From the IMG/VR virus record IMGVR_UViG_3300025108_000442, positions 1-21,595 of that record: a stretch of DNA of 21,595 nt. One strand, 5' to 3'. Made by a program: the position numbers and the translations under genes. The DNA is from a virus. Under the pieces are notes generated by a model, which saw only the letters and a list, made by a program, of their open reading frames with translations, searched no databases and was not told the DNA's origin. Below are positions 1 through 3,073 of the stretch, one piece after another (positions within the stretch are counted from its first letter, which is position 1; the number at the start of each line of letters is the position of its first letter).

Positions 1-59
1 CCCACTACCACACTCTCACTTCACTGTACAGAATCTCCAGTGACCAGATCAGTCTGCAC

Positions 60-170
60 AGTCACACTAAAGTCTTGACAATCTGTGCAGCCTGTGCCAG
101 GTCGCTAGCGTGACCAACATAGCCTATATAGTCACTTTCTAGGCTTGACAATTGCTGTAGTCTGTGCTAA
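60..170 (+). repeat. Imperfect direct repeat, 41 bp, period 70
   Basis: Positions 60-100 and 130-170 align. Both begin AGTCAC, both carry CTTGACAAT (TTGACA at 75-80 and 145-150) and both end in CTGTGC followed by CA or TA. Each looks like a -35 box followed at 17 bp by a TGTGC resembling an extended -10. However, the -10 hexamers themselves (98-103 and 168-173) are poor, so promoter activity is doubtful. Confidence 0.55.
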
Positions 171-357
171 ACAGGGACGGGGGAGGGGGCGTAGCTGCGG
201 AGATTGTTACTGTACCAGCCCAGATACAAAAAAGAGGTAAAATAGACTAAATAGCAACACAGTTATAACAAATAGCTATATAGGCTAAGTAGTTGATAGC
301 TAAGGGCTATAACGGCCACTGCGGAGACGCTGTTACGGCTGAGAATCCGCCTATAAA

Positions 358-391
358 GGAACTACATAGGAACTACATAGAGGCTACATAG
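358..391 (+). repeat. Tandem repeat of GGAACTACATA with CTACATAG cores
   Basis: GGAACTACATA occurs twice back to back (358-368 and 369-379), followed by a third degenerate copy (380-390). The shared core CTACATAG lies at 362-369, 373-380 and 384-391. The same core recurs at 669-676 and 678-685, just before the first gene. The related palindrome CTATATAG occurs at 124-131, 276-283 and 465-472. The pattern is iteron-like, but no binding protein can be named. Confidence 0.6.
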
Positions 392-433
392 CAGTTAATT
401 AACCAATAACATAGAATTAACAGTAAATAATGC

Positions 434-462
434 TTGACTTCTGTTAAAAAGTATGCTATAAT
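434..462 (+). promoter_or_regulatory. Sigma70-type promoter with extended -10, for packaging genes
   Basis: TTGACT (434-439), a 17-bp spacer and a perfect TATAAT (457-462) preceded by TGC, which forms an extended -10. Transcription would start near 469, inside the palindrome CTATATAG (465-472), leaving a leader of about 240 nt before the GTG at 707. The 16 bp at 425-440 are identical to those of the promoter at 5751-5779. The quality of the match suggests recognition by the host sigma factor. Confidence 0.82.
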
Positions 463-508
463 AGCTATATAGTTCATTAAAGAGTGTTTAAGTTGTTAAA
501 GTAATATA

Positions 509-652
509 GCTTTAAAGCGTTAAAGCAACAGAGCGTTAAAGCTTTAAAGCATTAGAGACGTTAAAGAGGAATTTAAGATCAAATAATTATTATTCTTAGC
601 CTTACAACGTCTTTAATGCTTTAAAGCTTTAAAGTCTCTGATGCTTTAAAGC
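509..652 (+). repeat. Four copies of the palindrome GCTTTAAAGC
   Basis: Perfect 10-bp palindromes lie at 509-518, 541-550, 618-627 and 643-652. They are interspersed with GTTAAAG half-sites at 495-501, 519-525, 535-541 and 560-566. A 19-bp direct repeat beginning TTAAAGCAAC is present at 520-538 and 646-664. The cluster sits between the promoter and the first packaging gene. It may be a multi-site target for a DNA-binding protein (operator, origin or packaging site); this is inference. Confidence 0.75.
536..632 (+). other. Long inverted repeat / predicted leader stem-loop
   Basis: Positions 536-561 are the reverse complement of 607-632 over 26 positions, with one mismatch (555 against 613) that would be a G-U pair in RNA. 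The loop is 562-606 and A/T-rich. The whole structure lies inside the predicted leader RNA of the promoter at 434-462. It has no U-tract after it, so it is not an ordinary intrinsic terminator. It could be an RNase III-type processing stem or a cruciform-forming DNA site. Confidence 0.65.
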
Positions 653-706
653 AACAGAGCGTTAGCGACTACATAGTCTACATAGTATCTCAATAGAGGC
701 AATTCT

Positions 707-1081
707 GTGACTGAAAAAAAGATAGGAAGACCTAAGAAGGCGAAGATCAAGAGTGTTACCAAGGGGCAACGCAGAGGCGTTGGTAGACCTAAAGGTGATG
801 CCGCCATCATCAACGAATACAAAGCCAGGATGTTAGCATCGCCTAAGAGTAAGAAGGTGTTAGATTCTATAATGAATGCAGCGTTAGATGATGACCATAA
901 GAATCAAGCAGCAGCTTGGAAGCTGTGCATGGATAGATTGTTACCCGTTAGCTATTTCGAAAAAGACAAGGCTAGTGGCGGTAAGAGTGCTATTAATATT
1001 TCCATTACTGGTGTCGGTGGCGAGACTACCGTCATAAGCGGTAATGAAGAACCCATAGAAGGGGAGTACACAGATGTATAA
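707..1081 (+). CDS. AT-hook protein, candidate small terminase subunit
   Basis: A 124-aa basic protein beginning at GTG, with AGAGG at 695-699 seven bases upstream; no better in-frame start is seen. The N-terminus has two AT-hook-like GRPK motifs (residues 7-10 and 26-29). A helical part follows (about 33-75), then a short linker and a Gly/Thr-rich, acidic tail. It is the first gene after the repeat-rich leader and lies two genes before the large terminase, the usual place for a small terminase that recognises phage DNA and loads the packaging motor. Size and DNA-binding motifs fit, but small terminases diverge strongly. A late-gene regulator that binds the upstream palindromes is the main alternative. 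Its last 8 bases overlap the next gene. Confidence 0.55.
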   Translation: MTEKKIGRPKKAKIKSVTKGQRRGVGRPKGDAAIINEYKARMLASPKSKKVLDSIMNAALDDDHKNQAAAWKLCMDRLLPVSYFEKDKASGGKSAINISITGVGGETTVISGNEEPIEGEYTDV

Positions 1082-1448
1082 TATCAATGAAGACCTTGAT
1101 TATTTCACTAGAGAAGAGTTTGCCTGTCAGTACACAGGAGAGAACGAGATTAGTGATAGATTGTTATTGAAGTTAGATTTGTTACGTGCAAGGTGTGGAT
1201 TCCCCTTTGTTATCACCAGTGGTTATCGTTCAGAAGACCACCCCATTGAAGCAAAGAAGGAGAAAGCAGGAACTCATGCCCAAGGTATTGCAGCGGACAT
1301 TAAAGTCAGAGACGGTGTACAGCGGTTTAGAATTGTTGAGGAGGCTATCAAAATGGGCTTTTCAGGAATTGGAGTTGCTAGTAGCTTTGTCCATGTTGAC
1401 ATCCGCTGTCTGGACGGTAACGAGTCTCCTGTAATGTGGACGTACTAA
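1074..1448 (+). CDS. M15-family zinc peptidase, probable endolysin
   Basis: This 124-aa protein matches the peptidase M15_3 (D-alanyl-D-alanine carboxypeptidase-like) family. The pattern ITSGYRS (residues 47-53) is followed by GTHAQGIAAD, giving zinc ligands His68 and Asp75, and by VHVD with the third ligand His107. These enzymes cut peptide cross-links in the cell wall, and in phages they usually act as single-domain endolysins released through a holin pore. No signal peptide or membrane segment is seen, so export would depend on the holins encoded 10 kb downstream. ATG 1074 overlaps the preceding stop by 8 bases, suggesting translational coupling. Its position inside the terminase cluster is unusual compared with classical lysis cassettes. 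A virion-associated murein peptidase is a less likely alternative. Confidence 0.85.
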   Translation: MYNINEDLDYFTREEFACQYTGENEISDRLLLKLDLLRARCGFPFVITSGYRSEDHPIEAKKEKAGTHAQGIAADIKVRDGVQRFRIVEEAIKMGFSGIGVASSFVHVDIRCLDGNESPVMWTY

Positions 1449-1449
1449 T

Positions 1450-1827
1450 ATGCCTATAACCTTAGAGCCTTTTGATTACAAGAAACATAAACCCCAAGAC
1501 GTTGGTTTAGGAGGCCTATCTACTGAGTATTTAATTACTGTAGACTCTCCAGAGGGAGGGGTTATGGTTATTCCTTCTATCTGGTGGGACTCTGACGGAA
1601 AACCAAAGCTAGTAGAGAACCAGAGAGAAGCTGTGTTGTTAGCTAAAGATTACGAAAAAACAACTAACAAACAGTTTCCTCGTTTTGCTCCTAAAGCATA
1701 TCAAGAAGCTGATAAGTTTGCTAGAGAGCGTTCTAAAGCAGGAGGCGCTTCTAATAGCTACCTAGCTAGAGACATAAAAGAAGAAAGAGCCAAGACAGCT
1801 AAGACGTTTAAGGAATCCCTTGACTGA
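1450..1827 (+). CDS. Conserved phage protein next to large terminase, function unknown
   Basis: A 125-aa soluble protein without a recognised domain. The N-terminal half contains LSTEYLITVDSP and GVMVIPSIWWD (about residues 23-47), which looks like a small beta-rich core. The second half is helical and charged, with PRFAPKAYQEADKFARERSK (about 77-96) and a Lys/Arg/Glu-rich end. It starts one base after the endolysin stop and overlaps the TTG start of the large terminase by 8 bases, so it is co-translated with packaging genes. I have the impression that similar proteins sit beside terminases in other marine podoviruses, but I cannot assign a role. A virion or packaging accessory protein is possible. 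Confidence 0.7.
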   Translation: MPITLEPFDYKKHKPQDVGLGGLSTEYLITVDSPEGGVMVIPSIWWDSDGKPKLVENQREAVLLAKDYEKTTNKQFPRFAPKAYQEADKFARERSKAGGASNSYLARDIKEERAKTAKTFKESLD

Positions 1828-3073
1828 TTTAAAGGTTGAGCTACTGCCGTGGCAGCAAGAGGTCTACAACGACCCTACACGGTTTAAGGTTATTGCCGCA
1901 GGTAGACGTACAGGTAAGAGTAGGTTAGCCGCTTGGTCGCTAATACTGAACTGCTTGTCAGCTAAGAAAGGTCAGGTGTTCTACGTTGCCCCTACACAGG
2001 GACAGGCTAGGGACATCATGTGGCAGATGCTACTGGAGCTAGGACATAGTGTCATAGCCTCTAGCCATGTCAACAACCTACAGATTAAGTTTATCAACGG
2101 TGCGTTGCTGACGCTGAAGGGTGCTGATAGACCTGAGACTATGCGTGGTGTTAGCCTAAAGTTCTTGGTTATGGATGAGTACGCTGACATGAAGCCAGAG
2201 GTGTGGGAGCAAATCCTACGCCCTGCTCTTGCGGATCAGAAGGGTGATGCGATGTTCATTGGTACGCCAATGGGACGTAACCACTTCTACGAACTATATA
2301 CATACGCTTGTGTGTCTGAAGACCCTACATTCAAAGGTTATCACTACACGAGCTTTGACAACCCATTGCTAGACCCGAAAGAGATTGAAGCTGCTGAGAA
2401 GAGTATGTCAGCCTTTTCCTTCCGACAGGAGTTCATGGCAAGTTTTGAGGCCCACGGTAGTGAACTCTTTAAAGAAGAGGATGTTACGTTTAGCGAGGAA
2501 GAACCTGCTGACGGTGATTATTATATCGCTGTCGATTTGGCAGGATTTGCAGACGTACAGAAAGTCACAACCAAAACAAAGAGGCTTGACCAAACAAGCA
2601 TTGCGGTTGTTAAATGTGGTACTACTGGTTGGTGGGTTAGCAATATCATCCACGGGCGGTGGGGCGTTGAAGAGACAGCTAGACGTATCTTCCAAGCGGT
2701 ACGAGATTATCAACCTGTTGCCGTCGGCATTGAGAAAGGAGCGTTAAAGAACGCTGTGTACCCTTACCTCAATGATGAGATGAAGAAGAACCAACGATTC
2801 TTCCGCATAGAGGAACTCACCCACGGTAACAAGAAGAAGACAGATAGAATCGTGTGGGCGTTACAAGGACGCTTTGAACACGGTAACATTACACTAAACA
2901 AGGGTAAGTGGAATACTCAGTTCCTAGACGAGTTGTTTCAGTTCCCTAATCCACTAGTCCACGATGACTTGATAGACTCACTAGCATACATAGATCAGTT
3001 AGCCAAGGTTAGCTATGCTTATGACTACGAGGAAGAGGACTACGAATTTTTAGATAAATACGCAGGGTATTAA
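1820..3073 (+). CDS. terL: Terminase large subunit (packaging ATPase and nuclease)
   Basis: This 417-aa protein is the DNA-packaging motor that docks on the portal, pumps DNA into the prohead and cuts the concatemer. The ATPase domain shows Walker A AGRRTGKS (residues 27-34), Walker B LKFLVMDE (113-120, with catalytic Glu120) and the coupling-type motif GTPMGRN. The RNase H-like nuclease domain shows an acidic strand with Asp239 (IAVDLAG) and a C-terminal HDDLID (381-386). The length is normal for a compact terminase. The start is TTG at 1820, with AAGGA at 1810-1814. No ATG lies between there and the Walker A motif, so a rare start codon is required. It overlaps the upstream gene by 8 bases and is followed after 2 bases by the portal gene. 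Confidence 0.95.
   Translation: MTDLKVELLPWQQEVYNDPTRFKVIAAGRRTGKSRLAAWSLILNCLSAKKGQVFYVAPTQGQARDIMWQMLLELGHSVIASSHVNNLQIKFINGALLTLKGADRPETMRGVSLKFLVMDEYADMKPEVWEQILRPALADQKGDAMFIGTPMGRNHFYELYTYACVSEDPTFKGYHYTSFDNPLLDPKEIEAAEKSMSAFSFRQEFMASFEAHGSELFKEEDVTFSEEEPADGDYYIAVDLAGFADVQKVTTKTKRLDQTSIAVVKCGTTGWWVSNIIHGRWGVEETARRIFQAVRDYQPVAVGIEKGALKNAVYPYLNDEMKKNQRFFRIEELTHGNKKKTDRIVWALQGRFEHGNITLNKGKWNTQFLDELFQFPNPLVHDDLIDSLAYIDQLAKVSYAYDYEEEDYEFLDKYAGY

Follow-up and report, generated by a model that had tools for sequence, protein, structure and literature searches.

Phage late-operon leaders can carry regulatory RNA or DNA elements, well-known cases being the lambda pR'/qut leader and the put sites of phage HK022. 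Lambda cosB and SPP1 pac are recognition sites of small terminases, and the lambda N leader, the T7 sites and the ompA 5' UTR provide examples of leader hairpins that are processed by RNase III or that stabilize a 5' end. Repression of a terS-led late operon by SaPI satellites is discussed in PMC7567579. The locus described here is known in kind, insofar as it has a structured, repeat-bearing late leader, but it is unusual in that symmetry persists at one site while the sequence is replaced. We found no published description of such an arrangement in the open-access literature, which does not prove its absence.

The late leader and its dyad block

The window, that is, the whole stretch of viral DNA that was analysed (21,595 nucleotides), derives from an uncultured, marine, podovirus-like lineage that has T7-like replication genes and for which no close cultured member was found. 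Cultured phages gave short DNA matches only, and among their proteins the relatives of the large terminase (TerL) are ~33-42% identical and those of the portal, from distant HMO-2011-type phages, ~21-25% identical. Host inference yielded two MAG contigs, which belong to different phyla.

A late sigma-70 promoter at 434-462 on the plus strand (TTGACT-17-TATAAT with an extended -10 TG, matching at 11 of 12 positions) precedes the rightward operon, and a near-identical promoter was found in the relatives inspected. The leader (463-706, +) extends from the first base past the -10 box up to the start codon; near its end, TATCTCAATAGAGG (686-699, +) holds the Shine-Dalgarno GAGG inside a small CTC/GAG hairpin that recurs in the leaders termed type I below. 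The first gene (707-1081, +; 124 aa) is a candidate small terminase gene, terS, named from position only: profile searches with its product returned no terminase match, and the predicted structure, a low-confidence model with a mean pLDDT of 62, had no PDB match. Two AT hooks, GRPKK and GRPKGD, are present in its product; the GRP core of each does not vary among 39 aligned homologues, of which 28 gave weak Pfam AT_hook matches. According to PHROGs, the genes downstream encode a peptidase/endolysin, the large terminase (1820-3073, +), the portal and the major capsid protein. Upstream of the promoter, a long intergenic region separates the operon from leftward genes; on the 35-kb, near-complete contig G004 the leftward arm encodes RNR, endonuclease I, an exonuclease, a family A DNA polymerase and a Toprim/DnaB-type primase-helicase, and no RNA polymerase was noticed there among the listed ORFs of at least 120 codons, with seven proteins scanned against Pfam.

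Several further elements were observed around the promoter. A block of the form TGTACC...CAGATACAAAAAAGAGGTAAAATAG occupies 211-246, and relatives have similar blocks upstream of their promoters. Ahead of the late promoter, CCACTGCGGAGACGCTGTTACGGCTGAGAATCCGCC (314-351) forms a GCGGA/TCCGC hairpin that the window's relatives conserve. Direct repeats of the CTACATAGGAA type, with 11-bp spacing, precede the promoter at 351-395, and a similar set precedes the start codon at 678-700; the upstream set is missing from one relative (L005).

Within the leader, a symmetric block spans approximately 505-666, and pairing is weaker outside these limits. It comprises two facing arms of iterated AT-rich boxes and an AT-rich centre, and relatives repeat its symmetry, not its sequence. 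A preliminary description of this DNA had placed a cluster of palindromes, half-sites and direct and inverted repeats at 509-664; all of these elements are present, and the limits were nearly right. The palindrome GCTTTAAAGC stands, as had been reported, at 509-518, 541-550, 618-627 and 643-652, four exact copies where 0.03 would be expected in the 21.6 kb of the window, a number attained in none of 100 dinucleotide shuffles. The 19-bp direct repeat TTAAAGCAACAGAGCGTTA, also as reported, occupies 520-538 and 646-664 (both +). The core inverted repeat pairs a left arm (536-562) with a right arm (606-632); its single G-U is real, although its length is 27 rather than 26 nt, and it is 96% complementary, the sole departure being that G-T (G-U as RNA). 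In a second register, 541-566 is 92% complementary to 627-652. The centre, or loop, at 563-605 contains TCAAATAATTATTATTCTTAGCCTT and is similar in the L041 and L392 lineages. On a score that weights G-T and A-C alike, the inverted repeat at 517-652 is the strongest of the window (74, vs 43 for the runner-up), and shuffles of the leader scored 31.6 on average and 57 at most.

Symmetry and sequence among relatives

Relatives were collected in scans of viral contigs: TerS proteins from different lineages served as queries in four, the large terminase in one and a promoter pattern in another. These scans gave just under 400 loci, many of which are overlapping pieces of the same contigs. From them we assembled a set of 97 distinct leaders with a recognized promoter, in 24 k-mer clusters; a leader whose promoter fell outside the search pattern was excluded from this set. 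A second extraction comprised 32 type I leaders. Type I leaders start near CTATATAG and mostly end in the small CTC/GAGG hairpin, and type II leaders are characterized by CTTAAG boxes. The order of promoter, leader and candidate terS, first noted in the window, holds throughout the relatives fetched.

What most leader types share is twofold symmetry: short AT-rich boxes make up two arms that face each other across an AT-rich centre, and the whole keeps a constant position downstream of the late promoter and ahead of the first gene. The leader contains the top-scoring inverted repeat of its own locus in 20 of 24 leader types, which are k-mer clusters and not strictly independent, and 18 of the 28 types tested reached p<=0.01 against dinucleotide shuffles. 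Six types (L054, L338, L151, L343, L155 and L392) were without significant symmetry, at p above 0.05. Only the nearest relatives have the palindrome GCTTTAAAGC itself, L041 carrying a variant of it. The preliminary description had proposed a search of related phages for the same palindromes, and the repeats are indeed conserved among close relatives, which keep the palindromes; distant relatives mostly keep the symmetry alone.

Sequence turnover is faster in the leader than in its flanks, and recombination swaps blocks. Lineages whose TerS proteins are 80-92% identical share the promoter and the start region, but their leader sequence differs and often cannot be aligned. At 80-85% identity of the TerS core, the leaders are identical at a fraction of 0.42, vs 0.66 for the upstream noncoding DNA, both values being averages over pairs of chosen representatives with the shared leader ends included. 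For example, when the window is compared with L110 and L113 by blastn, 174-472 and the sequence from 683 onward align, and the leader between them does not. The arms gain or lose blocks of 8, 17, 30 and 32 bp with no matching change in the opposite arm. Type II leaders keep their CTTAAG boxes, 9-10 bp apart centre to centre, and their spacers vary in an uncompensated manner: left-hand spacers read TATA, TGTA or TAC, and right-hand ones TATA or TATC.

Two loci display such exchange directly. Over most 100-base steps, L085 is 97-100% identical to the window from ~1000 through the large terminase, but below ~800 it has a type II leader and the AT-hook segment of another lineage; by blastn, L087 follows the same pattern. 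The leader and the AT-hook segment can therefore move together, and either leader can be accompanied by almost the same large terminase. As a separate observation, the gene at 1450-1827, between the peptidase and the large terminase, fails to align in L085.

Duplex DNA, leader RNA and other explanations

The block probably controls the late genes. The reading that we prefer, tentatively, is of a cis-acting, fast-changing dyad element that would control the late (packaging and structural) operon from within its leader, mainly as duplex DNA. It competes with the proposal that the late mRNA opens with a large hairpin, which would stabilize the 5' end, be processed from it (e.g. by RNase III) or restrict the first gene's translation. 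On the sequences compared, DNA appears slightly favoured and folded RNA would be nearly as likely.

Location speaks against DNA, as the symmetric block lies inside a transcribed leader, between the promoter and the Shine-Dalgarno sequence, as expected of a folded mRNA leader. The predicted RNA fold of window positions 468-706 has an energy of -79 kcal/mol (z = -8.6 vs shuffles), and most of the other type I leaders fold with z of about -3 to -9, many type II folds being weak or absent. Additionally, L027/L034 and L072 have non-palindromic repeats that face one another across the two arms, and the left arms of L154 and L143 could pair with the Shine-Dalgarno region. The suggestion of a processed 5' leader RNA fits in position and folding; where it falls short is in the identity of the mismatches. 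Selected pairing in a transcript should leave G-U, not A-C, as the tolerated mismatch, yet no overall bias of this kind emerged, whether the counts were summed as cluster means (G-U 38.5 vs A-C 53.4), as distinct mismatch states (47 vs 40) or as isolated mismatches in solid helices (9 vs 9), against a background of essentially 1:1 in other hairpins of the same loci (164 vs 166). Terminator-like hairpins, taken as a positive control, gave 6 G-U, 4 A-C and 6 other mismatches, were too few and were mostly not real terminators. One such hairpin, GGGGATTCTTCGGAGTCCCC followed by a T-rich tail and with a G-U pair in its stem, was seen in L363, L372 and L130.

Other comparisons of the strands were similarly divided. 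Across the 97 leaders the transcript strand folds no better than its complement, and the same is true of type II, whereas in type I the transcript strand has the better fold in 9 of 13 lineages. In the window's clade the core stem has three G-T (G-U) states, no A-C and two T-T, and the outer helix has mostly A-C mismatches. Compensatory pairs within leader clusters are few, and a search of window positions 1-1200 against Rfam gave matches only below gathering scores. These tests accumulated on the same sequences, with sub-groups examined after a neutral overall result, and together they constitute one body of weak evidence that would disfavour a strict constraint on RNA pairing and would still be compatible with a loose one. 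The type II boxes, with their uncompensated spacers, look like DNA sites. Elsewhere, the comparison of G-U with A-C offers a cheap separation of RNA stems and DNA dyads, for which a good positive control is still needed.

Three further explanations must be weighed against a control element. The block might be a packaging (pac or cos) site read by the adjacent small terminase, since it lies directly upstream of the candidate terS; the neighbouring protein carries AT hooks, and the AT-hook segment was exchanged along with the leader in L085/L087. The preliminary description envisaged such a site, but sequence-specific recognition by TerS is unlikely because the protein is constant and the leader changes: proteins that are 92% identical, with the same AT hooks, stand behind unrelated leaders, and near-identical downstream DNA (past ~1000), the large terminase included, occurs with the other leader type. 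Furthermore, the identity of TerS comes from its position, and we regard a packaging site as unlikely. Contig ends, which may bear on the same question, do not cluster in the leader; an excess of them lies ~395-482 bp upstream of terS and partly coincides with G-rich runs and the block right after. A contact based on DNA shape, or autoregulation, may nonetheless involve the AT-hook protein, because the AT-hook segment travels with the leader in the L085/L087 recombinant.

A replication origin, also raised at the outset, would join the promoter to an AT-rich dyad close to DnaA boxes; the phage has T7-like replication genes, and no phage RNA polymerase was noticed in one near-complete contig (ORFs of at least 120 codons listed, seven proteins scanned against Pfam). 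The replication genes do lie leftward. Many relatives have DnaA-box arrays in the intergenic region upstream, where, over at most 1.4 kb before terS, the pattern occurs 1.3 times per kb vs 0.03 downstream, and L087:3713-3800 holds an array of the DnaA-box-like TGTGGATAA with 11-bp spacing in places. However, the boxes sit mostly ~420-620 bp upstream of terS and none was seen in the leader; the strict pattern is missing from many relatives and cannot be seen ahead of the promoter in the window itself, and nothing links the leader to initiation. We therefore consider it improbable that the leader is part of an origin, a role that, if anywhere, would belong to the upstream DnaA-box arrays. Long G or C runs were also noticed beside the DnaA-box region (L129:1-40, L059:1-30 and L043:20-45), and several contigs start at or near them. 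Finally, template switching and repeat slippage could both perfect palindromes and lengthen them in a leader under no other constraint; the block indels, the independently changing arms, the fast turnover and the equal mismatch classes agree with a mutational by-product of this sort, which we nevertheless judge very improbable, as most leader types show symmetry in this same position and such symmetry is unusual in the rest of those loci.

A probable late control element among known systems

If the block acts as a duplex DNA control element, its dyad array, reaching from about +37 to +200, would offer a DNA-binding protein places to dock, and the bound protein would gate late transcription as an operator or a roadblock. 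The adjacent, conserved AT-hook protein is one candidate binder, because AT hooks contact the AT-rich minor groove rather than an exact sequence; proteins that are 92% identical and face different boxes would require a tolerant, or a different, binder. It is conceivable, though doubtful, that an arms race (e.g. with host factors or satellites acting against late expression) drives the letters to change while the AT-hook protein or an RNA fold still reads the shape. That a widespread lineage of marine phages keeps symmetry, but no conserved sequence, at a single position is unusual and would escape ordinary motif searches. The block is a concrete target for studies of late-gene switching in this lineage, whose replication genes are T7-like.

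Each of the systems introduced above shares some features with this locus and differs in others. As in the lambda N leader, the T7 sites and the ompA 5' UTR, a long, near-perfect stem is situated in a 5' leader, but over the family as a whole no signature of pairing on the transcript strand is seen here. The likeness to SaPI repression (PMC7567579) is that a late operon headed by terS serves as the control point; unlike that case, no satellite or repressor was identified here, and satellites are at most a possible cause of the fast turnover. The block resembles lambda cosB and SPP1 pac in having repeated sites that adjoin terS, whereas the sites here are wholly different between phages with almost the same protein. 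With lambda pR'/qut and HK022 put it has in common an element just past a strong promoter and ahead of the genes controlled; in contrast to those leaders, no Q-type site or U-run terminator was recognized, and it is the symmetry of the element, not its sequence, that recurs.
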